DNA from: a virus
DNA: 40,421 nt
IMG/VR virus record: IMGVR_UViG_3300006846_000035
Span: 1 to 40,421 of that record
Strand: one strand, 5' to 3'
Below, piece after piece: positions 19,235-39,030 of the stretch. The notes under the pieces were generated by a model. It did not search any database, was not told the DNA's origin, and saw only the letters and a list, made by a program, of their open reading frames with translations. Position 1 is the stretch's first letter, and each line of letters begins with the position of its first letter. Position numbers and translations under genes: made by a program.

Positions 19235-20371
19235 TTACTGCTGTTTCACGAAGAACACGTCGTAGATGTTGAGGAACCGCGCCCGGTGCGCCATCGGGTT
19301 CTTGAACGGATCCACGCGACCGCTCGGATCCCGTCGTTCCGCAAATCCCTTGAACGCGAATTGGTTGCCGTAACGATCCCGGTAGTTATCCGGCTCGTAC
19401 CCGAGGGCGATCGAGACGTAGTACTTGCTGAATGGCTCGATCTCGGACGTCTGTCCAACGCCGTCGTGATTGCTGTCGACCCACAGCAACAATTCCTTGA
19501 AGAACGTGTCCCCTTCCTCGATGTACGCGGCTTTGTTTTCCAGCCCTGAGAGCTTGGCGAGCGCATGGAAGCCGTTGTACACGCCAGGAATCGTGTAATT
19601 CCCCAACAGTTCGCGGCCGTTGTCGGGGAGGCCGTTCTTGTTGCGATCGATGAAGAGGAATCCCACCGGCACGCCACGCTGCGTCCATCCGATCCGATCC
19701 AGGTCACCGTCGCCATCGATGTCGAACAGCACGCCATCCTTCGCGGAGGTGAGGCGGAAGATTTCCTCGCGATTGCCCTGCACGCCAATCGGCACAAGGA
19801 TCGGAGAGTCGCACGTGATGTACTCGCCGGTGTAGGGATCGAAGTACCCGCCCAACCCCATACTGAAGGCTTCCGAACAGCTATCGATCGGCTCCTCAGC
19901 GTAGATGCACGGCGGACCGTTGACGTATGTGCTCCCCGCTAAGCTGTCCAAGCGTTCTCCGTCTGCCTTCAACTCCGAACCGATGTAGCGGGCATGCCAT
20001 GACCCGCATTTCTCCGGCAAGGCCATTCCTGCTTTTGTGTACATGATGGCCCCATCGGCACAGTAAAACTCGACCTTCGTGCCCTTGTGGAAGCAGGGGC
20101 CGTCGGCAAGGTCATACCATGTTCGGATACCGATGTTCGGGGCATCGAAGCAGTACGGCGCGGGGATGCCGCCATCCCTGCGGTCGTAGTAGAACACCAC
20201 GTAGGGCATGGTCTGCGCCGGGTTGGAGATACGATAGAACCCGTTTTCGTCGGTGTCAACACCGTGGACGCGATAACACGTTGACTGCGCCTCAGCCGTC
20301 GTTTCGGCGAGGGCCAGCGTCCCACACATCAATGCGAGGATACAGAGCACTTTCATAGTCATCTTCTTCAT
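19235..20371 (-). CDS. Secreted protein with EF-hand-like calcium loops
   Basis: 378 residues, ATG at 20371 with AGGAG nine bases before it. Residues 1-29 form a Sec signal peptide (MKKMTMKVLCILALMCGTLA and on, cleavage near ALA or AEA). The N-terminal half has many cysteines likely forming disulfides. The C-terminal half has three calcium-loop-like segments: DIDGDGDLD (217-225), DRNKNGLPDNGRE (242-254) and DSNHDGVGQTSE (299-310). This style is typical of secreted bacterial proteins, so the gene looks like a host-derived moron within a virion operon. It may alter the host surface. A minor tail protein is less likely given the signal peptide. Confidence 0.65.
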   Translation of the reverse strand: MKKMTMKVLCILALMCGTLALAETTAEAQSTCYRVHGVDTDENGFYRISNPAQTMPYVVFYYDRRDGGIPAPYCFDAPNIGIRTWYDLADGPCFHKGTKVEFYCADGAIMYTKAGMALPEKCGSWHARYIGSELKADGERLDSLAGSTYVNGPPCIYAEEPIDSCSEAFSMGLGGYFDPYTGEYITCDSPILVPIGVQGNREEIFRLTSAKDGVLFDIDGDGDLDRIGWTQRGVPVGFLFIDRNKNGLPDNGRELLGNYTIPGVYNGFHALAKLSGLENKAAYIEEGDTFFKELLLWVDSNHDGVGQTSEIEPFSKYYVSIALGYEPDNYRDRYGNQFAFKGFAERRDPSGRVDPFKNPMAHRARFLNIYDVFFVKQQ

Positions 20372-20418: not shown

Positions 20419-21228
20419 TCAGTTCTTTCTCGTGAGAGCCTGCTTGGCACGCTGGCACGTCTCGTCGTGGTCGTCTCTAAATCCGCTGTTGAACGCACAC
20501 CAGCACTGCTCGTCGTAATCCTCACGATAGAGATTTGGCGGCGCGCAAAGCGAACATTGAGACAACAGCGCATCTTCCAACTCTTTAATGCGTTCCCCTA
20601 AACGCTCGGCCTGCTGGGCGCTGAGGGCTTCGGCGGCTTCCTTCTCCGCAATAAACTTGTCTAGGGCCGCTTGGCTTTTAGGACTCGCATCGGCAAAAAA
20701 CGCCTTGGTCCGGTTGCGTTCTTCTATTGCTTTGTCCCGCTCCTGCTCTAACTCCCGCTGTCGGCTCTCGGCGGCAGCGGCACGCTTCATAGCCTCGTCA
20801 TAGAGCGCTTGTGGAACCACCCCGCTACCAGCCTTGACTTCGCACAGGTCAGCCCAATACTCGTCTCGCTGGCTCTCGGCGGCAGCGAGGGCGGCGGCAA
20901 GTTGGTTTAGCCGCGCACCCAATCGGCACTTTCGGCATGGCTGCGGACCTTCTACGCATACCATTCCGTCCACATCTTGCTTAAGCGATAGAACCAATTG
21001 CTCCAACACAGACGGCGAGGACGCAGGGGCGGAAACAGAAAGAGGCTGGCGGGGTTCGCTACGTCCCGCAGTTTGTTCGACAGCGCATACCGGGAGGCCA
21101 GTATCCCCCGGAGCTTCACTCGGCGTTGGACATGCTTCTGCCGCTTCCTCTGAGCCTAATGCTCCAGCCTCTTTCTCTCCCCCTGTGCTGGAGGACGGCG
21201 CGGGGGCAGGCTTCGGGTGATTGGTCAT
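20419..21228 (-). CDS. Coiled-coil hypothetical protein with Cys clusters (269 aa)
   Basis: ATG at 21228. The first 75 residues are a disordered Pro/Ser/Glu-rich segment, then CRKCRLG (C-x2-C), a long coiled coil (LAAALAAAESQRDEYWADLC, AAAESRQRELEQERDKAIEE) and a C-terminal cysteine region (LLSQCSLCAPP, EQCWCAFN, DETCQRAK) that could bind zinc. The type is common in phage accessory regions and is often annotated as hypothetical. The stretch from here to 22 kb seems less GC-rich than the structural genes, suggesting later acquisition. Confidence 0.6.
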   Translation of the reverse strand: MTNHPKPAPAPSSSTGGEKEAGALGSEEAAEACPTPSEAPGDTGLPVCAVEQTAGRSEPRQPLSVSAPASSPSVLEQLVLSLKQDVDGMVCVEGPQPCRKCRLGARLNQLAAALAAAESQRDEYWADLCEVKAGSGVVPQALYDEAMKRAAAAESRQRELEQERDKAIEERNRTKAFFADASPKSQAALDKFIAEKEAAEALSAQQAERLGERIKELEDALLSQCSLCAPPNLYREDYDEQCWCAFNSGFRDDHDETCQRAKQALTRKN

Positions 21229-21230
21229 CG

Positions 21231-21437
21231 CTATTCTTCCAACATCACCAAGCGTGATGAAAAGCCGGGAATGACCGGGTCGATTTCCTGCCCTGTCTTT
21301 GCGTCATATTCGAGCGAGGAGTCTTCCAATAGCACCTTTCCCTTTTTCACGCCATTCACGAATTGAATGGTCGCAGTTTCAACACCGCCACCGCGCAGAA
21401 TCTTCACAACCTTGTCGCCTTTTTTAAATACGCTCAT
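21231..21437 (-). CDS. Small hypothetical protein (68 aa), beta-rich
   Basis: ATG at 21437, overlapping the upstream stop (ATGA). The sequence is alternately charged and hydrophobic (SVFKKGDKVVKILRGGGVET, ATIQFVNGVKKGKVLLED), which looks like a small SH3-like or KOW-like beta barrel, and ends in an acidic LVMLEE. No family is assigned. It belongs to the accessory cluster between the radical SAM gene and the secreted protein. Confidence 0.55.
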   Translation of the reverse strand: MSVFKKGDKVVKILRGGGVETATIQFVNGVKKGKVLLEDSSLEYDAKTGQEIDPVIPGFSSRLVMLEE

Positions 21438-21625
21438 TGTCCCTCCCTCCCGTCAGCCTCTAGTTCACGCTTGACAGCCCGAGCCACCGCGCGACCAAAA
21501 ACGCGCAAGCTCCGACAATACGGGCAGGGGGTCGAGCTGCAATCGCCGCAAGACTCCTTCGCCAGTTCGCGGATGCGCTTGTTGATTCGGCAGTCGACGC
21601 AATCGGCCATCTTGTGCGGAGCCAT
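21434..21625 (-). CDS. Cys-rich zinc-finger-like miniprotein (63 aa)
   Basis: ATG at 21625, one base after the likely true end of the DUF551 gene. It holds CVDC, CGDC and CPYC pairs (MADCVDCRINK, KESCGDCSS, TPCPYCRS), enough for one or two zinc sites, followed by a basic helix (GRAVARAVKRELEAD). Such miniproteins often bind nucleic acids or regulate, but no target is visible. Confidence 0.55.
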   Translation of the reverse strand: MAPHKMADCVDCRINKRIRELAKESCGDCSSTPCPYCRSLRVFGRAVARAVKRELEADGREGQ

Positions 21626-22019
21626 CTATGTCTCCCTCCCGTCAGCGGGCGGTAGCGGCAAGGGCATCCAGTGGGTTGGTTGGTCCTGCCGTGTCGCATT
21701 TACACCCCACAGGCGTTCGCGGTCGTTCGTCCAATACGGTCTTGGCTGCTTAAGCATATCGGTCGGTTTGCCAGCGTCCACGAACAACACCGCGAGCGGG
21801 TGTTAACAACAGCACATCGGCATCTTTCGGCGCAGTCTCTATCGGTTGCCAGCCGTCTCCCTGCACCTGGGCGAGCAGCTCGCGGATGATGACCTCGCAT
21901 ACTTCGCACGCGTCACCGTCGCACGCTGGCGCGGCACCACCAACACGGTGGATAGCCACGTTCAGAGCGATGTGAACCTTTCGCGCCTGTTCTCTCGTGA
22001 TGGGCTGATCGGAGGGCAT
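21626..22019 (-). pseudogene. DUF551-like gene with a frameshift
   Basis: ATG at 22019 overlaps the radical SAM stop (TGATG). The first frame gives ACDGDACEVCEVIIRELLAQ, then the DUF551 signature GWQPIETAPKDADVLLLTPA, and stops at TAA 21750-21752. Directly after that TAA, in the +1 frame, the family's usual ending continues (KQPRPYWTNDRERLWGV, then QPTHWMPLPLPPADGRET) to a TAG at 21626-21628, which is flush with the next ATG at 21625. So the gene is split by a one-base shift at GCT-TAA-GCA. It may be a real mutation, a sequencing indel or programmed +1 shifting. DUF551 function is unknown. Confidence 0.7.
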
Positions 22020-23335
22020 CAAGATCTCGCTTTCTCCGCATCACCGTGATCGCCGTGCGTCCGTACCGGCCTCTCCGCGTCGGTGTGATCGCCGTGCGGC
22101 ACATCTCCGTGCGGTACATCGCCGTGCGGCACGATGCCGCTGCCGGTGGCGCCTTGCCTCAACGCCGCACCAATGCTCACATTCTGACCGGAGGACCACG
22201 AGCGGAGCAACGCCGCCTCGATCGCCGGTCGCATCAACGATGACGACAACGGAGTCTTCCCTTCCCCAATCAATTCCTGTTCGAGATCCGCGAAGATCGC
22301 CATCAAGCTCGCGCAGTGCGTCGTGCGGCTTCTCCATTCACTTCCCTCGCCCGTGCCTGGGCATTCGCCTTTGCACGCGAAGAAGAACCGGCACTCCTGG
22401 CACCCGCCATGCGCCTGCGGGGTGAGGTACAGGGCGAGCTGCCGCTCGTACCCGGCGACGCTGCCCTTCACGTAGGGCACCCCATCCTTGTTCGTGCGCC
22501 CGCAATTACCCCTATTCCCTTGGCCGTCGATTCCACGCACGGCATTCGTGGTGTACGGGTCGCACGCGTGCCAGATACATTCGACGTTCTGTTCATCCTC
22601 GCCAATGAGGAGAGCGCGCATGCTGTCGAAGGGCATGGCGCGCAACCCGGCACACGACTGCACGGTGGATCGCAGCTTTCGGAGCGCGGCAATCTGTTCT
22701 TCTGGCGGGAGGACATATTGCGCGATGTCGCCGTCGACTTCAAGGAGGTGGAAATTGACGTGGCGAAGTCCTCGGTGGTACAGCTCGACGATCCACCCTG
22801 ACAAGTACTTGATGACATCGGCGCCCGCGTTCACTGTCGACAGCGTGACGATCAGGCTCGCGCCGATCCCACGCGCGAGGAGCTTCAAGAACGCCTGATT
22901 CGATAAGTCTGTCGTCCGATCCGTCGCCTCGATAGTCTCCGACGCGCGCAGCCGATTCAATTCCTTCGGTCCATCGATACTGACACCAACGCTCACGCCG
23001 AACTGAACGAACAAATCGAGGTGGCGATCGGTGATCAAGCTCGCGTTGGTTTGGATAGAGATGGGTACCCCTAACCCCTTCCCCCAGGAAAACATGCGTT
23101 CGAGATCCTTTAAGGGAAGGAGGAGGGGTTCGCCGCCGAAGAGGGTAAAGCCTGTCTTCCCGCCGCGTACATCGGGAGACCCTACCCCTTCGTTCCTGAG
23201 CGCGGCGAACATCTTGTCGAAGTCGTAATTGCCTTCGATCGGGTCTTCGTTACCTGCCTCGCGCATGGCATTCTCATAGCAGTATGGGCATTTGAGATTG
23301 CACCGCTGCCCGAGGGGAAGGAGTTCGATACTCAC
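22019..23335 (-). CDS. Radical SAM/SPASM protein-modifying enzyme with HGD-repeat tail
   Basis: 438 residues, GTG start at 23335 overlapping the upstream TGA. C12, C16 and C19 form the CxxxCxxC of the 4Fe-4S cluster (RCNLKCPYCYE), followed by FGGEPLL and IQTNASLI. The C-terminal part has a SPASM-type cysteine set (CDPYTTN, GNCGRTN, CQECRFFFACKGECPG). Such enzymes modify peptides or proteins by radical chemistry, or mature sulfatases. Unusually, residues 404-432 are six HxD motifs (PHGDVPHGDVPHGDHTD and two more), echoing the 39 HxD repeats of the appendage protein three genes upstream. I infer that this enzyme modifies those repeats, or shares a binding partner with them. Confidence 0.85.
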   Translation of the reverse strand: MSIELLPLGQRCNLKCPYCYENAMREAGNEDPIEGNYDFDKMFAALRNEGVGSPDVRGGKTGFTLFGGEPLLLPLKDLERMFSWGKGLGVPISIQTNASLITDRHLDLFVQFGVSVGVSIDGPKELNRLRASETIEATDRTTDLSNQAFLKLLARGIGASLIVTLSTVNAGADVIKYLSGWIVELYHRGLRHVNFHLLEVDGDIAQYVLPPEEQIAALRKLRSTVQSCAGLRAMPFDSMRALLIGEDEQNVECIWHACDPYTTNAVRGIDGQGNRGNCGRTNKDGVPYVKGSVAGYERQLALYLTPQAHGGCQECRFFFACKGECPGTGEGSEWRSRTTHCASLMAIFADLEQELIGEGKTPLSSSLMRPAIEAALLRSWSSGQNVSIGAALRQGATGSGIVPHGDVPHGDVPHGDHTDAERPVRTHGDHGDAEKARS

Positions 23336-23478
23336 TTCTGAACCTGGGCAGCTTGCACTACGCGTACAGCTTCGAGGATGTCGAAGGCGAGGGCGATCGT
23401 TTCCTTCGTCGAGAGATTAGGGAAACGATTCTTGAGAACTTCAGCGATCGCGAGGAGTTCGTCCCGTCCGTTTGGCAT
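23332..23478 (-). CDS. Small helical protein (48 aa)
   Basis: ATG at 23478 with AGGGA nine bases before it; the TGA at 23332-23334 overlaps the radical SAM GTG start. The product is one charged helical segment (RDELLAIAEVLKNRF, TKETIALAFDILEAVRVVQA). The direct stop/start overlap with the radical SAM gene suggests coupled translation and perhaps an accessory role. No peptide-binding RRE fold can be claimed at this length. Confidence 0.5.
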   Translation of the reverse strand: MPNGRDELLAIAEVLKNRFPNLSTKETIALAFDILEAVRVVQAAQVQK

Positions 23479-23520
23479 GCGGGGATCCCTGTGCAGGGAC
23501 CATGCCGCACGGGTAACTAC

Positions 23521-23604
23521 TTACGCCTTCTTCCCTTTCCCTTCCAACCACGAGAACACGACAGCCACCACCATCGCGAGCGTCCAGAACACGAGATCGG
23601 ACAT
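23521..23604 (-). CDS. Tiny single-pass membrane protein (27 aa)
   Basis: ATG at 23604, preceded by GGTGGAGGTGG at good spacing, to TAA 23521-23523. The product MSDLVFWTLAMVVAVVFSWL followed by EGKGKKA has one membrane helix and a basic tail on one side. Length is at the lower limit for gene calling, but the strong ribosome-binding site and clear membrane-protein pattern support it. It could be a small lysis-related or membrane peptide. Confidence 0.5.
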   Translation of the reverse strand: MSDLVFWTLAMVVAVVFSWLEGKGKKA

Positions 23605-23627
23605 ACCCACCTCCACCTAGGCGGGTA

Positions 23628-24179
23628 TTATCGCGCAAACGCCGCCTGAAGGGGAGAGCGGGGCACCGGGAGGAGCGGGAGGGGTGCTTTCGCCGTTTGT
23701 TCGATGGCGGCCTTTTTCGCCATTTTCACCCGCTGTTCCTCGTCGAGACCTTCGTGCCGCGCGATCGCCGCGTCCATTGCCGTAAGGAACCCCTTATCCT
23801 TTTCCCCAAGCCGCAACAGCACCTCTTTATGTTTCCGGTAAGCTGGCGCCTCAAACGGATCGTTGCGTTTGGAGTGCTCGGCTTCGTGCGCCAGGATTCC
23901 CGCGAGCCGGTGTGGCTGCTTCTCGAACTTCTTGTACGGGTCTCCCTTGCGCTGCACCGTGATCCGCTGGCGATCGGGATTGTACTTGTTGATCTCGCCG
24001 AAGTACTGCGCCTCCACGCCCTGTTTCGTGCGCCAATCGTCCTGGGCCATCTCCACCGGCACGATCGGCCGCTCTTCCGGCAACAGGAGTTTGGCGGCGT
24101 TGTACAACTTCGCGTCGGGATATTGCGCCAATCCCGAATTCAGCATCGCTTGCGTCAGGATGTCTGCGAGATTCGCCAT
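23628..24179 (-). CDS. Small zincin-like metallopeptidase
   Basis: ATG at 24179 with GAGGG five bases before it; a TTG at 24191 is an in-frame alternative. The 183-residue protein has AGILAHEAEHSKRND, an HExxH zinc-binding motif (H98, E99, H102). It ends RSPLQAAFAR, the short motif shared with the internal virion proteins. A virion-borne or late protease that trims structural proteins is plausible, since it sits between the appendage gene and the radical SAM gene. A third zinc ligand could not be placed with confidence. Confidence 0.6.
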   Translation of the reverse strand: MANLADILTQAMLNSGLAQYPDAKLYNAAKLLLPEERPIVPVEMAQDDWRTKQGVEAQYFGEINKYNPDRQRITVQRKGDPYKKFEKQPHRLAGILAHEAEHSKRNDPFEAPAYRKHKEVLLRLGEKDKGFLTAMDAAIARHEGLDEEQRVKMAKKAAIEQTAKAPLPLLPVPRSPLQAAFAR

Positions 24180-24187
24180 GATGACCC

Positions 24188-26062
24188 TCAAATATCAGAG
24201 TGCGTCGTGTCGCAGTGATAGCCGACGTCGGTATGCGGAACGTCCGCGTGCGGGGTGTCGGAGTGCCCGCCATCTGTGTGCGGTGTGTCCGCGTGCGGCG
24301 TGTCCGAATGCGAATCGGAGTGCGGGGTATCCGAATGCCCCGAGTCGGAATGCGCCGCATCGCTGTGCGTGTCGGCATGGGCAACGTCGACGTGCGCTAC
24401 GTCGGAATGGGAATCGCCGTGCGAGGCATCGGCATGCGCCACGTCGGTGTGGGGTGTGTCGAAGTGCAGATCGATGTGCTGATCTTGGTGGATGAACCCA
24501 TCCTGAAAGTCGATGTTTTCGTCGCCGTGCTGATCGTCGTGGGCGACGTCTTGATGCGCGGTGTCCTGATGGGCGCCGTCGACGTGGGCCACGTCCTCAT
24601 GCGCGACATCCGAGTGCGCGACATCGCTATGGGCGTCGGCGTGCGCCGAATCACCGTGCGCGGCGTCCGCGTGTGCCACATCGTTGTGGGTATCGACGTG
24701 GGTGGTGTCCACGTGGGCCACGTCGCTGTGGCTCGCATCCGCGTGCGCGGTATCCTGATGGGCCGCATCGGTGTGCAGTTCGCTCACCGTCGCACAGCTC
24801 GTCTCCACCATGAAGGTGATCTGACCCATGACATACGTGTTATCCCCCGCGGTGGTCGTCCAACCCCCGTAGGCGCCATTGGCGTAACACTTCAAGTGGG
24901 TCAGCCCGGCCGTCGCGACGCATATGCCGATCTGAAACGTACCCGCATCGGCCACGGAGATCGGGTTTCGCGCATCGCGGGCAATGGTGCGCCCGGCGGG
25001 AACCGTGATCCTCAGTTCCCCCGGCGCGGCGCTCACGTCAGTGTTGTGAATCTCGAAATCGACGGTCATCTTGTTGCCGTCGATCTGGTAAGCGAAATAG
25101 TGTTGATCGTCCGACGTGACGGTCCATGACCCCGCGCTCGCGGTGAAATTCCCCGCCGCGAAAGGCACGTCCACCCACTGATCGGCTTTCAGGATGATGT
25201 GCCACGTCCCATCCGTCTCACGGTAGATGTCTACCGACTCGCGTGGATTCAGGTAATACATCGAACCCGCCGGGCACTGCACACGATTCGCAGCAGTGCT
25301 GCCGGTGTTCATATGAAGGATCGCGAACCGATAGATCCCTTCGTTGATGATCGTCTTACGCGACGGGGCGGAGATGTTCGTGGCGCTGAACCCGGTGATC
25401 GTCAGATTCGCCGCCGTGGGAACTAGCCGCACTACACGCGCCGCGCGAAAGTTGGCGGGCGCGTAATCGTTCTGATTCGACCCGAATTCCGCGTACGACA
25501 TCACCTCGTCATGCGTGCGTGACAGCAACAGCCATCGCGCCGCCGCGGAATCCGAGACAATCGCGGTCATCGTCTTCGGCGGGAGGAAATAACGGTTCGT
25601 CGCGCCGGTGACCGAGGCCGGATTGTAGGGGAGGGCAAAGCGATTCGCGGGAGTACTGCCGGTGTGTTCGTGCTCTAAGATCAGGACTCCGGTGTCCGAC
25701 GCATTCTCGATAACGAGGACGCGGCCATCGAGCACGTTGCCCAATTCATCAACTGGAATTTGGATGCCGGTGATCGTGCATTCGGCGAGCGTGGTGGAGA
25801 GACGGAGGAGGCCCGCGTCGCGCAACCGCTCATCGTTGAAATTGTGGATGGTCGCCGAGGTGAACGGCGCCGGAGTCAGGATCGTCGAGAAGCTGAGGCG
25901 ACCGACTTGCAGCGTGGTCGCATGGACATGCCCGTGCCGATCGTCATCGGTGTGTTCCTTGGCCCAAGATCCAGCGATCGACGCGAGCAAGCTGTCCCAC
26001 AGGGTGAGCATCCAATCGCCGACCCCGCGCAACTCCTCGCGATAAGGATTGACGAGGCGCAT
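24188..26062 (-). CDS. Appendage/tail-fibre-like protein with C-terminal HxD repeats
   Basis: 624 residues; the ATG at 26062 overlaps the upstream stop (TAATG). Residues 1-428 look like a virion appendage: an N-terminal anchor (GDWMLTLWDSLLASIAGSWA), then beta-rich segments full of Thr, Asn and Gly. Residues 430-624 are a tandem array of 39 His-x-Asp motifs, mostly five residues apart, the rest four or occasionally three apart, e.g. AHADASHSDVAHVD. One unit near the end is HCD (Cys617). The array could bind many divalent metal ions. Position directly after the tail protein supports a tail role. The neighbouring radical SAM enzyme carries the same kind of motif, so modification of this array is likely. 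Confidence 0.8.
   Translation of the reverse strand: MRLVNPYREELRGVGDWMLTLWDSLLASIAGSWAKEHTDDDRHGHVHATTLQVGRLSFSTILTPAPFTSATIHNFNDERLRDAGLLRLSTTLAECTITGIQIPVDELGNVLDGRVLVIENASDTGVLILEHEHTGSTPANRFALPYNPASVTGATNRYFLPPKTMTAIVSDSAAARWLLLSRTHDEVMSYAEFGSNQNDYAPANFRAARVVRLVPTAANLTITGFSATNISAPSRKTIINEGIYRFAILHMNTGSTAANRVQCPAGSMYYLNPRESVDIYRETDGTWHIILKADQWVDVPFAAGNFTASAGSWTVTSDDQHYFAYQIDGNKMTVDFEIHNTDVSAAPGELRITVPAGRTIARDARNPISVADAGTFQIGICVATAGLTHLKCYANGAYGGWTTTAGDNTYVMGQITFMVETSCATVSELHTDAAHQDTAHADASHSDVAHVDTTHVDTHNDVAHADAAHGDSAHADAHSDVAHSDVAHEDVAHVDGAHQDTAHQDVAHDDQHGDENIDFQDGFIHQDQHIDLHFDTPHTDVAHADASHGDSHSDVAHVDVAHADTHSDAAHSDSGHSDTPHSDSHSDTPHADTPHTDGGHSDTPHADVPHTDVGYHCDTTHSDI
24191..24775 (-). repeat. 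HxD-coding tandem repeat array
   Basis: About 585 bases encode 39 H-x-D units, mostly as 15-base units with shorter 9- and 12-base units mixed in. One non-repeat interruption (ENIDFQDGFI) lies near the middle. Codons vary between units, so the array is old or selected at protein level. Confidence 0.85.
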
Positions 26063-28659
26063 TAGCTCGTGCTCTCTTCCTCGAATCGCACCTTGGCGAT
26101 GTACTCATCCAGAATCCACGACTGATCGAGTTGGGAGCCGGAGAAGGTTGAGGGGTCGCCGATCTCAAACTGCACCACGTTGCACTCGGAAATCCTCGCG
26201 TCGTCGATAGGCTTGAAGACGTGGGTCTCACTGCCGCCGGAGGAGGCAATGCTCTTGGTCACGGAGTTGGTGCCAAGCCCCAGGTTGCGAATCAACTTGA
26301 TGCCGATCGTCGAATTGGCGACACGTGCGAACAGCAAGCCCGCCACGACACCGAACTTCTGATAGATGCCGAGATGATAGGCGCGCGAAAGGAAGTACGC
26401 GCGATACCGATGGCCCGCATCGGTGATCGCATCCACGGGGAACTTCACGAGTGGCGGGTTGAGCATGCCTATGACGGGCAAGAGGGGCAACCCGCCATCC
26501 GGATACATCACAATGTCGCCGTAGATCCCGTTGTCCATGAGCGGCGATTCGTATATCGCGAACCCACCGTACCGCGCGGTGTAGACGAGGAGCTTGTTGG
26601 GGATGTCGCTGCCATTCGCGCCGTAGGCGACCCACACTTGCCGCTTCGTCGGGTGGTACGCGATCCTCGGGCCGCGGACCGAGGCGGTACCCTTTTCCGC
26701 CGCCTCCCACGTATCGAGGACCGCCTCACCGAGTTCCTGAATGCCGTCGCGCGAGGCGCGGCACAGTCCCACCGCGGGATCGACGAAATAGACGCAGGGC
26801 GCCCATCCTTGGGCTGTCCGTGCGTGGCCGGAACACGCCGCGCGAATGATGGCGCCGCGCGAATGGCTCTCCGTGTGATGGCGATACGCATCCGTCAGAA
26901 TGCCGGTACGGGTGAGCTTGTACGTCCGTTCCATTTTGAAGGCGTACACGTTGCCCGACTCACCGGCGATCATCATCGTGACGCCTCCGCCATCGAGGTT
27001 GTCGAGATCGAGCGTGTTGCCAGTCGTCGCCGGAATGCGCTCATCGTTCCCGACACCTGATGCTAGGGCGACCGGCGTCCATTGCACGCGCGCATCGCTT
27101 CCCTGGGTGAAGCGGTTGCCCGCCATCATCAAGCGATCGTCATCGACCGCGATGTGTCGGACGGCGCCAGGAGCGACGTACTCACCAATCGATTCGCTGA
27201 CCGGGTTGCTGCTGTACGTCGTCCCGAGCGCAGTGGTATCGGTGTAAGTAGCGGTGCCGATGGCGACGGTCGCGATGCGATAGAAGATGGTGTTATCGAG
27301 CGAGGCTTCCACTTCCCAATGGGTCTGCCCATTCATGAACAGGGAGGTGTAATCCTCGGTTCCGCTCGGTTTGGTGATCACCGCGCCGTCATTGGCCCCG
27401 CCGGGAACAAAGGCCGTGACGGTGGTGGGTTCAGAGCGCCGCAACGTGCGCCCGCTGCCATCCTGCGCCGTGTACCGGATACGGAAGTACCGCGTGCCTG
27501 AATACGTGCCTACGCCCGCGGTACTGGCGACCGTTGGCGCGGGTGGGACGTTCGGGAAGCCCGCGTGCCGCAAGATGGTTCCATCCCACACGAGCAAGCC
27601 GTTGATGACTTGCTGCGCGGCGATGAAGAACTTGCCGTGCAGACTGGCGCCGTTGATGTCCAGTCCCGTGGAATCAAACACACCGATGTAATAGTTGACG
27701 ACGGGGACGCCGGTTTGCCACGTCCCGCCTACCCGGCGATCGATACGACCGAACAGATCGACCATCCACAATTCGTCTTCCGACAAATTGATGGTCGGCG
27801 TGTGCCGCATCACCGCAAGAAAAGTGAAGCCCACGGCCGTAAAACTGGAGAGGGGCGCACCACGAAGCGTGAGCGAGCGACCGACCCATTCCTTGGAGGC
27901 GGAAAGGGTGAACCAATTGACGGTACTCGGTTTCCTTCCCTGTTCAGACGCGACCCACAGCCGCGCGTTGCCTTGCGAGAGGCTGGCGACGGGTGCGAAC
28001 AACGGAGTCGTCCCGGTGGCACCCGTATCGTAGGAGAAGCCCGCGGTGACGAGGAACGTGGGATCGGTGACCGTGGTCACGCGCGGCTGCGTGTTGATCG
28101 CTGACGCCCCGGCGGCGCCGATCGTGAGGAGATCGACACGTTGATAGAACTCTGCCACTCCGGCCGCATCGCACGCCCCGGCCAGGGTGACCGCCACCGT
28201 GCCGCCTGCGAGCGAGGCGCCGGTGAGCGCCCACGTTTCCAATCGGCCTGAAGCCCCGGAGTTATCCGCCGACCGCTCCGTCAAGGCGACGCCACCATAT
28301 GTGACCGCCGTCACATCGGTATTGGCCTTGGTCGAAATACGCACCACGATCGCGGTGAACGTCGTCCCGGTTCCATCGTTCGTGGTCGCGGGAACGGAGA
28401 TGTTGAAGCTCGCGCCACCCGTCACCCCGCCAGTCGCCGTCTGCGCGCGGATCGGAATGACGCGATTCAACACGGAGGCATCAACCGACAGACTCGAACA
28501 TCCCGCGCGCTTGCCGCCGATGGTCCCCAACATCCAATCGATGTTGCGCGCGTCGGCGACCATGTTCTCGGGGATGGCCTGCGGCTCGTCGGTGTTCTCC
28601 ATCCCCCCGCGCAGATCGCGGAGGAGGAACGGTTCAGGGAGAGGGGGGCGAGATGCCAT
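26062..28659 (-). CDS. Large tail protein (nozzle/tail-tube type)
   Basis: 865 residues, ATG at 28659. The N-terminus (LLRDLRGGMENTDEPQAIPE, VADARNIDWMLGTIGGKRAG) is the pattern that opens many podoviral tail nozzle or tubular tail proteins. The rest is beta-rich with repeated Thr/Gly-rich strands and several DGxG turns, as expected for a propeller-like tail protein. It lies between the head-tail adaptor and the HxD appendage gene, the usual place for this component. I could not match it to a named family, so the exact role within the tail is inferred. Confidence 0.7.
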   Translation of the reverse strand: MASRPPLPEPFLLRDLRGGMENTDEPQAIPENMVADARNIDWMLGTIGGKRAGCSSLSVDASVLNRVIPIRAQTATGGVTGGASFNISVPATTNDGTGTTFTAIVVRISTKANTDVTAVTYGGVALTERSADNSGASGRLETWALTGASLAGGTVAVTLAGACDAAGVAEFYQRVDLLTIGAAGASAINTQPRVTTVTDPTFLVTAGFSYDTGATGTTPLFAPVASLSQGNARLWVASEQGRKPSTVNWFTLSASKEWVGRSLTLRGAPLSSFTAVGFTFLAVMRHTPTINLSEDELWMVDLFGRIDRRVGGTWQTGVPVVNYYIGVFDSTGLDINGASLHGKFFIAAQQVINGLLVWDGTILRHAGFPNVPPAPTVASTAGVGTYSGTRYFRIRYTAQDGSGRTLRRSEPTTVTAFVPGGANDGAVITKPSGTEDYTSLFMNGQTHWEVEASLDNTIFYRIATVAIGTATYTDTTALGTTYSSNPVSESIGEYVAPGAVRHIAVDDDRLMMAGNRFTQGSDARVQWTPVALASGVGNDERIPATTGNTLDLDNLDGGGVTMMIAGESGNVYAFKMERTYKLTRTGILTDAYRHHTESHSRGAIIRAACSGHARTAQGWAPCVYFVDPAVGLCRASRDGIQELGEAVLDTWEAAEKGTASVRGPRIAYHPTKRQVWVAYGANGSDIPNKLLVYTARYGGFAIYESPLMDNGIYGDIVMYPDGGLPLLPVIGMLNPPLVKFPVDAITDAGHRYRAYFLSRAYHLGIYQKFGVVAGLLFARVANSTIGIKLIRNLGLGTNSVTKSIASSGGSETHVFKPIDDARISECNVVQFEIGDPSTFSGSQLDQSWILDEYIAKVRFEEESTS

Positions 28660-28668
28660 GACGCAACC

Positions 28669-29334
28669 TCACGCCCATCCGTACGGCCGACTGAGATGCG
28701 GACCCCACCACCAAAACTGTGTGCCCTGCTGGCGATAGAGGTAAGCCGACTTCGCCAGGAAGTAGCGGAGTTCGGACGTACGCTTTTCGGCGCGCTTTGC
28801 CATCTTCGAGGAGAGATCGGGCTTCTCCATCTTGTCGAGTTCATCCGCGAGCGCGTGATAGACGAGAATGTCGTGAAAGTCTTCAGGGAACGCCGGGACA
28901 TCCCCATCGGCGCTCAATTCGGTCCCGCTCGCCAACCCGTCGACGTTGAGGACCATCACAGAAGTAGGTGTCGGCCAAATCCGGATCACCACGCCGGTCG
29001 CGGTGAATTTCTGTGTGACGAAGTATTCGGGATCGCCGACCTTGTTGAGATTCGGATCCACCTCGCGGATGTAATCCTCCGACTTTTCGAGGAGGATCTT
29101 GTTGCCCGCGGGATAGGCAATCTGGAAAATCTTGATGAAGCCCGCGGGGGTGTACGTCGGCGTACCGTTCACGGTGTTCAGTGTGCCGGTCGTCCGACGT
29201 ACCCGCCCGAGGCCGACCGAGGTTTGGAGTTCGCGGTAACGCTCGTTCAGAAATTCCTTGATGCGCGTACGGGCGTCTGCACTCGTGAGGTTCAGCCGCC
29301 CCATAACGCGATCCTGTGCCTGCTTGAACGTCAC
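28669..29334 (-). CDS. Head-tail adaptor-like protein
   Basis: 221 residues, GTG start at 29334 with AAGGGGG ahead of it. The protein begins with an adaptor-type helix (FKQAQDRVMGRLNLTSADAR, TRIKEFLNERYRELQTSVG), has a beta middle (FIKIFQIAYPAGNKILLEKS), and ends with helices and PEDFHDILVYHALADELDKM. The helix-rich ends around a beta core, together with its place ahead of the tail protein, match the adaptor that joins portal to tail in podoviruses. Confidence 0.65.
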   Translation of the reverse strand: MTFKQAQDRVMGRLNLTSADARTRIKEFLNERYRELQTSVGLGRVRRTTGTLNTVNGTPTYTPAGFIKIFQIAYPAGNKILLEKSEDYIREVDPNLNKVGDPEYFVTQKFTATGVVIRIWPTPTSVMVLNVDGLASGTELSADGDVPAFPEDFHDILVYHALADELDKMEKPDLSSKMAKRAEKRTSELRYFLAKSAYLYRQQGTQFWWWGPHLSRPYGWA

Positions 29335-31174: not shown

Positions 31175-32110
31175 CTACATCTCGGTCATGACTGCCGTCC
31201 GGCTCTTGTTCCGCTGGACGTGCTGCAACATCGAGAAGATGCTGAAGCGGTAGCCCTGTCCGCTCTCCAATTCCTGCGTGTCGCCCTTGTCGCGGAATGC
31301 GCCCTGGAACACGATCAGGTTGATGGCCTTCGGCGTGTTCATGTGAATGCGCGTGCCGCCGTACTGCGAGAAGATCCACCGCGCGGACTTGAACGCCAGC
31401 GTCTTGAAGCCGCCGTCCAGATCCTTGGTACCGACCCACCGCTGAAGGGACTGCTCTTGCCCCTCGTAAGTGGCCTGGGTTTCCGCGTCGGACGTGATGA
31501 GCGACGGGTGAATCGTCGCCCCGGATCCCTTCGTCGCGGTGTTCCACGTCAGCGTGAGCTTCGACTTGATATCGGTGCCCGCCGCCGCGTACGTGGTGCT
31601 GAAATTCCTCCACCACGTGTCGGTCGCCGCGTTGATGCCCCCGACCGTGCCCTGACCGGAGTCGGGGATGAGGGTCTGGAAGCCGAAGAAGCCGTTGGTC
31701 GACACGGCGAACAACGCCTGTTCCACGATGTCATCGTGCGAATCGATCGCGTTGGACAGGAGTTGCTTGGTGAGTGCGATCTTCTGGTTGACCGTGGGAT
31801 TCTTCGCCTCGTCAGCCTTTGACCACACAACCGGCACGCTGAGCTGCGCCGGATCGTAGATGGCTGCCGTGACGACTTCGGTCTTACCCATCGCCAACGG
31901 ATCGAGATCGTTGGACTGGAAGCCCGCACCGGGGTTCCGGCGGTAGTCGAGCTGCGCTTCGATCTGCGGACCGCCAGGGACACGCTTCACGAAACCTTGA
32001 CGCTCGTACTCCTTCATGAGCGGCGATTCGGCCCACTGGTTGTCGGCCTTCCGCTTCTTGGCGAGTACGACGTTGTACGACACCGCCGCAATCTGTGAGA
32101 CAGATGGCAT
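31175..32110 (-). CDS. Major capsid protein
   Basis: 311 residues, ATG at 32110. The sequence has the mixed alpha/beta composition of HK97-fold coat proteins: an N-terminal helix with charged residues (VVLAKKRKADNQWAESPLMK), a long middle helix (VNQKIALTKQLLSNAIDSHD, IVEQALFAVS), and a C-terminal part with TPKAINLIVFQGAF. It follows the acidic scaffold gene by 12 bases, which is the usual gene order. No named capsid family could be assigned by eye. Confidence 0.8.
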   Translation of the reverse strand: MPSVSQIAAVSYNVVLAKKRKADNQWAESPLMKEYERQGFVKRVPGGPQIEAQLDYRRNPGAGFQSNDLDPLAMGKTEVVTAAIYDPAQLSVPVVWSKADEAKNPTVNQKIALTKQLLSNAIDSHDDIVEQALFAVSTNGFFGFQTLIPDSGQGTVGGINAATDTWWRNFSTTYAAAGTDIKSKLTLTWNTATKGSGATIHPSLITSDAETQATYEGQEQSLQRWVGTKDLDGGFKTLAFKSARWIFSQYGGTRIHMNTPKAINLIVFQGAFRDKGDTQELESGQGYRFSIFSMLQHVQRNKSRTAVMTEM

Positions 32111-37440: not shown

Positions 37441-39030
37441 CTATCGTTTTCGTACCGATTCTACGCCTAGGGGTAAACGGGTTTGGTGTCCCTTCGTGAT
37501 TGCCGCGCGAATTGCGGGCGGGAGAGATTGGAGATTGAGGCCCGTGGGTTTCCGCGAGGGGTTCGGCCGCGACATGCAGAAGTACTTGGTGGCGTCCGCG
37601 GCGTGATCGGGTTGGTGAGAGCCGATCTTCGTCGGATCCAATTTGTCTTTGGTCAGTGTCGGAAAGGTTTTGATGGCGTACGGGCACCCTGACCACCCGT
37701 GCGACGAGGACGGGCGGAGGAATTGGAGGGCAGGGTAGGGGCGCGTGCTGAAAAATTCGGTCGTGAGCCAACTATGGACGCGCGTGAAGCCCGCCGGGTG
37801 CGAGTTGTCGCCTTCGATCATCGAAATGGCACCGTGCTTCCGCTTCGCGAAGGTTTCCGCAATCGATTCTCCGGTGCGATGGGCGAACATCGAAGGGTCG
37901 CCCACCGTGTACCGGATCTTCATCGGGCCTTTGCGGTTGTGGAGATGCGGATCGAAGCGCGACATATCGCGGATCGCGACGGAAACATCTTCCGGCTTGG
38001 TTTTGGTGAACTTGTACTCTTGGAAGCCAATCGCGGACCCGTCAGGAAGGAGCGCGAACCAAATGCACACCCCTGGTTCCTCCTCTGAATACCCCCAATC
38101 GATCGCACGGACAATTTCGATCCACGACGTGATGAGGCACGGGAGACCTTTGAAGTACGGCAACTCCTCGATGACATGCCACGGCATGATGTCTTCGCCC
38201 CATGCCTTCTTCTCGCGCCACTCTTCGTAGAATTGGCCCTCGACCGCCTGCCAATCGCCGTCGCGGTACATCTTGCGGAGGGCTTCAGTGGGGAGCGCAT
38301 CGAGGCGGAGGTTGTATTCCTTCTGATCGACGTGCGGGTTGTCCGCGATCGTCGCCGGGATGAAGTGATAGTTATCCGGGTGAAAGGCCGGATCGCGTTC
38401 TGAATCGACGTCCTTGTTGATGTAGTAGTCAGGGATCCATGCGGCGCCAGGGTTGGACCCGGCGCGGGTGATCGGGATGTTGCCGGATGTCTTCGAGCTG
38501 CGGAGGCGCGAGCACAGGAACCGGAACATGAACTCGGTGAAGGTGGCGAGTTCGTCGAAATAGATGCAATCGAATTCCGAAGACAAGTACTGCTTCAGGG
38601 CTTGGTCATCTTCGACGTGCCCGAAGCGGAAGCGCGATCCCTTGGGGTAAACGACGGTGGTTTCACTCGCCCGGTACCGGCCGCCGATCATTTCGGCTTC
38701 GGTTTGCAGCTTGTCCAAATGGGTATCGCGCAGTTCGGTCATCAACCGGCGCACGAGGAGGCAGCGATACCCGGCTTGCGTCAGGCAGCGGAGGTGACCA
38801 TCCATGCGGAGGGCGACCGATTTCCCGGTGCCTGCGCGTCCCCCGTACAACACGTTGCGCGACGTGGCGAAATGCAGCTCGCACTGCTTCTCAGTCGGGG
38901 TGTAGAAGGGGACCGATTGCCCGGTGTTCGGGTTGACGGTCCAAATCAGCGGCGTCTCACCGGGGATGAAGCCCGATGGGATGATCGCCGCCGGTAATTG
39001 GCTCAGGAGGGTAGGGGCGGCGACAGTCAT
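37441..39030 (-). CDS. terL: Terminase large subunit
   Basis: 529 residues, ATG at 39030. The ATPase part has a Walker A (GGRAGTGKS, residues 63-71) and a Walker B (CIYFDE, 155-160) with a preceding coupling-type segment. The nuclease part has acidic residues in the RNase-H-like order: AIDWGY (D311), GDPS (D378) and PDHAADA (D475, D479). This is the motor that cuts and packages DNA into the head. The gene overlaps the next small gene by 4 bases. Overall length is typical. Confidence 0.9.
   Translation of the reverse strand: MTVAAPTLLSQLPAAIIPSGFIPGETPLIWTVNPNTGQSVPFYTPTEKQCELHFATSRNVLYGGRAGTGKSVALRMDGHLRCLTQAGYRCLLVRRLMTELRDTHLDKLQTEAEMIGGRYRASETTVVYPKGSRFRFGHVEDDQALKQYLSSEFDCIYFDELATFTEFMFRFLCSRLRSSKTSGNIPITRAGSNPGAAWIPDYYINKDVDSERDPAFHPDNYHFIPATIADNPHVDQKEYNLRLDALPTEALRKMYRDGDWQAVEGQFYEEWREKKAWGEDIMPWHVIEELPYFKGLPCLITSWIEIVRAIDWGYSEEEPGVCIWFALLPDGSAIGFQEYKFTKTKPEDVSVAIRDMSRFDPHLHNRKGPMKIRYTVGDPSMFAHRTGESIAETFAKRKHGAISMIEGDNSHPAGFTRVHSWLTTEFFSTRPYPALQFLRPSSSHGWSGCPYAIKTFPTLTKDKLDPTKIGSHQPDHAADATKYFCMSRPNPSRKPTGLNLQSLPPAIRAAITKGHQTRLPLGVESVRKR

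Follow-up and report, generated by a model that had tools for sequence, protein, structure and literature searches.

The 40,421-base phage record IMGVR_UViG_3300006846_000035 from IMG/VR, analysed here over its whole length (the window), encodes a 624-residue protein that ends in a dense array of His-x-Asp (HxD) triplets and, close by, a 438-residue radical SAM/SPASM enzyme. The question raised by this locus is whether the enzyme acts on the array and what it would make of it. Arguing by analogy with known peptide maturases, we consider it probable that the two genes belong to a three-gene maturation module, completed by a DUF483-like protein, whose enzyme would join aromatic residues to Asp or Asn as cyclophanes on the array of a virion adhesin or fibre.

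The HxD protein contains 40 HxD triplets, one at residue 37 and 39 within residues 430-623, and all 39 His residues of the array belong to such triplets. When the array residues were shuffled 5000 times, the mean HxD number was 8.4 and the maximum 18. The 39 triplets are spelled by 35 different 9-nt sequences (His: CAC 27, CAT 12; Asp: GAC 23, GAT 19), indicating conservation or selection at the protein level, not recent DNA duplication. Chance and a DNA-repeat artefact were thus ruled out as origins, and the C-terminal array of 39 motifs described in the initial annotation of this DNA is real.

The assignment of the neighbouring gene to the radical SAM/SPASM enzymes was likewise borne out. 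PF04055 (radical SAM) matched above its cut-off (E 9.5e-13), the CxxxCxxC motif (C12, C16 and C19) was invariant among 20 homologues, and the FGGEP motif was present. The full SPASM set (C258-x14-G273-x4-C278 and C312-x2-C315-x5-C321-x3-C325-x15-C341) was also invariant in 20 divergent homologues. The best curated profile matches were the cyclophane maturases YhhB, AmcB, FxsB, XyeB and OscB, along with DynA and sulfatase maturase, and the solved structures closest by sequence profile were the anaerobic sulfatase-maturing enzyme anSME (PDB 4k36) and ChlB. The NCBIfam scan of the window enzyme returned no model at its cut-off, and PHROG 1802 covers it merely as 'radical SAM domain-containing protein'. 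The initial annotation had paired array protein and enzyme correctly, but its inventory was incomplete, as it overlooked the DUF483-methyltransferase partner and the HGD/HTD tail of the enzyme (Table 1). At least two HxD/N triplets were found in this tail in 56 of 63 non-redundant viral enzymes, versus 13 of 47 cellular ones.

The pairing was examined in both directions. In the forward scan, a DNA pattern of five tandem HxDxx codon units was run against IMG/VR; the matches included many frame-noise repeats, and irregular arrays were defined, ignoring the enzyme, by minima of 10 HxD, 10 distinct HxDxx and three spacings. Among the 119 stretches listed, 33 were irregular arrays, and the enzyme was present in the fetched DNA of 26 of them, always within 1.8 kb; whole-record searches added three more (29/33). 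By comparison, it was present in the fetched DNA of none of the 86 other repeat loci. These counts are not all independent, because some records repeat one another. Four irregular arrays lacked the enzyme (L014, L048, L034 and L111): L014 and L048 seem to share their array protein with L050, a locus with a larger record that does have the enzyme, L034 is similar, and the record of L111 spans 18 kb.

For the reverse test, patterns were taken from the enzyme core of a 20-enzyme alignment (A1), with the HGD tail excluded, and the resulting sample comprised 80 viral and 80 genomic loci. The frequencies given for arrays, enzyme and DUF483 refer to these sampled loci, of which 110 were non-redundant and reached a core score of 240 or more (63 viral and 47 cellular). 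An open reading frame (ORF) rich in HxD/HxN was found near the enzyme at 98 of the 110 (94 dense, 4 weak), including 60 of the 63 viral loci; the three viral exceptions were contigs of 7.8-10.9 kb, with the enzyme at the edge in one. Arrays were absent near fetched enzyme homologues scoring about 120 or less. For 85 of 122 arrays, the array gene lay upstream of the enzyme on the same strand and within 1 kb. Co-occurrence, which the initial annotation had named as the way to check its proposal, therefore held strongly in both directions.

The arrays also follow a substitution code, which was derived from 122 non-redundant arrays (19,602 residues). Relative to the array average, the residue two positions before Asp was enriched for His (4.7-fold), Trp (2.1), Tyr (1.6) and Phe (1.3), with all others at 0.43 or less. 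The chance of Asp or Asn at +2 was 0.97 for His, 0.48 for Trp, 0.37 for Tyr, 0.40 for Phe and 0.05 for the remaining residues, the His figures being partly by construction because arrays were chosen on HxD/HxN density. In cellular arrays alone, the values for Trp and Tyr were 0.65 and 0.63, respectively. The aromatic preference was confined to offset +2 and was seen at no other offset. Moreover, Glu and Ser were rare at +2 of His (3/3518 and 8/3518, respectively), and Pro never occurred as x (0/3037). The Thermus phages Cumys and phiMa are reported to share 96% average nucleotide identity (PMC11437467). Their arrays differ in 15 columns, 13 of them at x or linker positions and two at motif positions, where His is replaced by Tyr (position 1) and Asn by Asp (position 3). 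In some further arrays (L190, 9066-9998; L262, L263, L266 and L267), HxN, WxN/WxD or YxD stand in for many HxD.

The third component was recognised by its match to a hidden Markov model of the module's conserved downstream neighbour (E 4e-117), and its C-terminal domain has a methyltransferase fold. A same-strand DUF483-like neighbour, usually just downstream of the enzyme, was found at 88 of the 110 loci; with fusions and all locus ORFs counted, a DUF483-like protein was present in 105, including 15 cellular loci with an enzyme fusion. The five loci without it are all viral and include L001, in which the sequence downstream of the enzyme stops after about 1.8 kb, and other contig ends. In five relatives, PF04467 scored 19-23 bits in four (cut-off 25) and gave no match in the fifth. 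Many DUF483 partners carry the methyltransferase domain, and the versions of the Thermus phages, among others, are without it.

This arrangement, an aromatic residue at i followed by Asp or Asn at i+2, is typical of three-residue cyclophane enzymes, and from it we infer His-Asp cyclophanes in this phage. In the proposed mechanism, the enzyme would act on the aromatic-x-Asp/Asn triplets (39 HxD here) that end a virion adhesin or tail fibre, most likely taking the Cbeta hydrogen from each Asp or Asn. The Cbeta would then be bonded to the ring two residues before, that of His here and of Trp, Tyr or Phe too in relatives. The resulting row of three-residue cyclophanes would form a rod or adhesive segment stiffened by covalent bonds and resistant to proteases and heat. 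As an obligate partner, the DUF483 protein would perhaps bind or deliver the substrate, with its methyltransferase domain optional. In viral enzymes, the HGD/HTD tail may serve in docking or as a self-modified substrate mimic.

The array might instead be modified without a cross-link, for example when Asp/Asn residues undergo oxidation, hydroxylation or epimerisation or when His is changed, possibly with subsequent methylation by the DUF483-methyltransferase. We regard this as unlikely. The closest full-length profile relatives do include the anaerobic sulfatase maturase, a Cbeta oxidiser, and the methyltransferase domain of many DUF483 partners would fit; however, a one-residue modification would not be expected to need an aromatic exactly two residues before Asp/Asn, with only Trp, Tyr and Phe replacing His, and the methylation step is hard to reconcile with DUF483 proteins that have no such domain. 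The initial annotation had also considered bound metals beside cross-links and altered residues, and an unmodified metal-binding or pH-responsive array, akin to the HxH iron sites of phage tail fibres and with the enzyme linked for another reason, would draw on the frequent role of His and Asp as metal ligands, by which dense arrays could bind iron, zinc or calcium. A metal site, however, is expected to tolerate Glu and to refuse Trp, Phe and Asn. The motif accepts Asn, Trp, Tyr and Phe but refuses Glu, which is the wrong ligand pattern, and the linkage to the enzyme is near universal. The code thus favours covalent chemistry at an Asp/Asn that faces an aromatic ring, and the metal-binding array appears quite improbable.

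A 2024 paper on Cumys and phiMa noted an rSAM module consisting of an enzyme, a DUF483 protein and a third protein, and proposed DNA modification; it reports that in some cyanobacteria homologues lie close to genes for deazapurine modification of DNA (PMC11437467). Judged from the section of that paper on the module, it is the module described here, and its third protein is taken to be the HxD protein; that section mentions neither the neighbouring HxD repeats nor protein modification. Considering the aromatic-x-Asp/Asn array at nearly all loci, the array-like tail of the viral enzymes and the grouping of the enzyme with SPASM peptide maturases, it is very improbable that the radical SAM-DUF483 pair modifies DNA.

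Several points weigh against cyclophane formation on a virion appendage. Every named maturase family scored far below its curated cut-off (YhhB: 65.7 bits vs 445), and the cellular enzymes too scored below the cut-offs of the named cyclophane maturases, so that the chemistry is assigned by analogy. The choice of arrays by density inflated the His figures of the code, leaving those of Trp, Tyr and Phe unaffected. In the fold search of the DUF483-like protein, only the methyltransferase domain was matched and the N-terminal domain gave no informative match. The appendage model of the HxD protein has medium confidence only. In addition, a few cellular enzyme homologues have no array nearby, for example that of Bradyrhizobium L252. 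This locus, which has a DUF483 neighbour, and five other Bradyrhizobium loci (L250, L251, L253, L254 and L258) showed no obvious HxD array; the substrate of these enzymes may be encoded elsewhere or carry a different motif.

The body of the HxD protein was modelled as a single chain with AlphaFold (mean predicted local distance difference test score 69; beta domains mostly 70-90). Foldseek matched it to phage tailspikes (E about 1e-4), receptor-binding proteins and Caudovirales tail fibres, with low template modelling scores. The gene follows those of an SU10-type adaptor and an 865-residue presumed tail protein, and residues 291-419 reappear at the C-terminus of other phage proteins. With medium confidence, the body is thus predicted to be a fibre-like scaffold. 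No relatives of this HxD protein were found in annotated phages by tblastn, because arrays occur on many unrelated scaffolds.

Among phage proteins, arrays were found on a tail-tip J protein (L002), LamG-domain proteins (L140 and L144) and the tailspike-like body of the window. The Lambda J-like protein of L002 (4572-8153, plus strand) is the clearest case of an HxD array on a known tail protein. Cellular hosts of arrays included proteins that by eye look exported by the twin-arginine pathway (L244, L256, L220 and L259), a lectin-domain protein (L221) and large proteins of no recognised type. These hosts suggest that the arrays act in structure or adhesion, outside the cell or in the virion. 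The earlier placing of the array on a phage appendage agrees with several phage substrates that resemble tail-fibre, tail-tip or adhesin proteins, and the array would be located in the virion. In five cellular loci (L229, L235, L237, L243 and L269), proteins of about 1050-1500 residues with a C-terminal HxD array adjoin the enzyme, which is often a DUF483 fusion; a Pfam scan of those from L235, L237 and L243 detected no domain. A repeated N-terminal unit of about 30 residues, 'GSIWVEGTxLxYIDxxGN', was seen in L236, L257, L260, L261, L264, L266, L002 and L122; the HxD proteins that share it belong to Thermus phages, bacteria and an archaeal plasmid. The unit had no Pfam match in L261 and L236 and is perhaps an attachment domain.

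Linkage and code support the protein-modification system first proposed, though not as one restricted to phages: the module is common to many viruses and to bacteria and archaea. In a quick tree with a midpoint root only, most cellular enzymes formed one group inside the viral diversity, and archaeal and mixed members formed a separate deep group. Three cultured Thermus phages (Cumys, phiMa and phiLo) carry the module, and among annotated phages only the Thermus phages had enzyme homologues at good coverage. In Cumys and phiMa, ORFs with 54 and 53 HxD adjoin the enzyme. In phiLo (L124), three array proteins are encoded side by side, with 55, 101 and 72 HxD (20810-26672, minus strand), the richest set in a cultured phage here, located 4-10 kb from the enzyme and on the opposite strand. 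The chances appear evenly balanced that stapling is virus-wide, with the enzyme and DUF483 protein putting tens of cyclophanes on virion adhesins under guidance of the tail, and that exported proteins would be treated likewise in bacteria and archaea.

The features of the window are listed in Table 1. Array and enzyme genes are close, as first annotated, but two ORFs (187 and 48 residues) lie between them instead of three small genes. The 187-residue ORF has an HExxH-like motif (LAHEAEH) and is possibly a metallopeptidase, with no convincing family match. The 378-residue protein has a signal-peptide-like start, Asp-rich calcium-loop-like segments and a weak PHROG match to a protease family. 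The plus strand encodes a DNA polymerase and a DNA methyltransferase.

Table 1 Coordinates of the module, its parts and further genes in the window
Feature	Position	Strand	Remark
DUF483-like protein with C-terminal methyltransferase domain, 550 aa	17565-19217	minus	third module component
378-aa protein between enzyme and DUF483 genes	19235-20371	minus	
Radical SAM/SPASM enzyme, 438 aa	22019-23335	minus	proposed HxD maturase; GTG start
Substrate-like C-terminal tail of enzyme, PHGDVPHGDVPHGDHTD...THGDHGD	22022-22129	minus	
187-aa ORF between array and enzyme genes	23628-24191	minus	
HxD protein, 624 aa	24188-26062	minus	ends in HxD array
HxD array, residues 430-623	24194-24775	minus	39 triplets, spacing mostly 5 or 4
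HxD protein residues 1-429	24776-26062	minus	N-terminal helix and beta-rich tail-fibre/tailspike-like body
865-aa protein, read as tail protein	26062-28659	minus	no clear family
SU10-type adaptor	28669-29334	minus	
Major head protein	31175-32110	minus	
Terminase large subunit	37441-39030	minus	

If the proposal is true, radical SAM chemistry would have a novel type of substrate in a tail protein, and few proteins predicted to date would bear as many radical SAM modifications as these structural proteins of phages. Virus surfaces would then display a new protein material, made of dozens of adjoining cyclophanes, and the system could provide a tool for stapling long protein segments. Such a result would also point to a function of DUF483 and re-interpret the rSAM module of Thermus phages. 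The module can be tested directly, as it occurs in three Thermus phages and several bacteria that are in culture.

No description of an HxD-radical SAM system was found in the open literature searched, a scope that leaves aside subscription papers, and none of the NCBIfam and PHROG families searched names it, PADLOC lying outside the search. Several known systems are comparable in part. The tail-fibre tip protein gp37 of T4, with its iron-coordinating HxH, likewise carries His-rich motifs on a tail appendage, but these are HxH, not HxD/N, and are not known to have a modifying enzyme; the array substitutions speak against a plain ligand role. The anSME enzyme, which performs Cbeta radical chemistry on a protein, shares the SPASM domain in addition to its closeness by sequence profile, but it acts on one Ser or Cys of a sulfatase, without a repeat substrate. 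The Hxs system (HxsB/HxsC with HxsA) similarly combines His-x-polar repeats with dedicated radical SAM enzymes, two of them paired, but its repeats use Ser where the arrays here use Asp/Asn, and we know of no DUF483 partner in it. The HxsB profile TIGR03978 gave a best E of 1.7e-11 over 20 members, below its cut-off and weaker than many other maturase models; this weak match and the near absence of Ser at +2 of His ruled out Hxs membership. The triceptide enzymes (OscB, XncB/XyeB, FxsB, YxdB, HaaB, YhhB and AmcB) are also SPASM radical SAM proteins whose gene adjoins that of a substrate with a repeated aromatic-x-Asn/Asp motif at i and i+2. Their precedents include Trp-Asn/Asp links by OscB, Phe-Asn links, Tyr-Asp links by YxdB and His C2 cross-links by HaaB and YhhB (PMC11002830). 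Triceptide substrates, however, are short precursor peptides with few sites, whereas those predicted here are phage tail proteins and exported-looking cell proteins of about 70 to 1500 residues, with up to about 100 sites and a near-obligate DUF483 partner.

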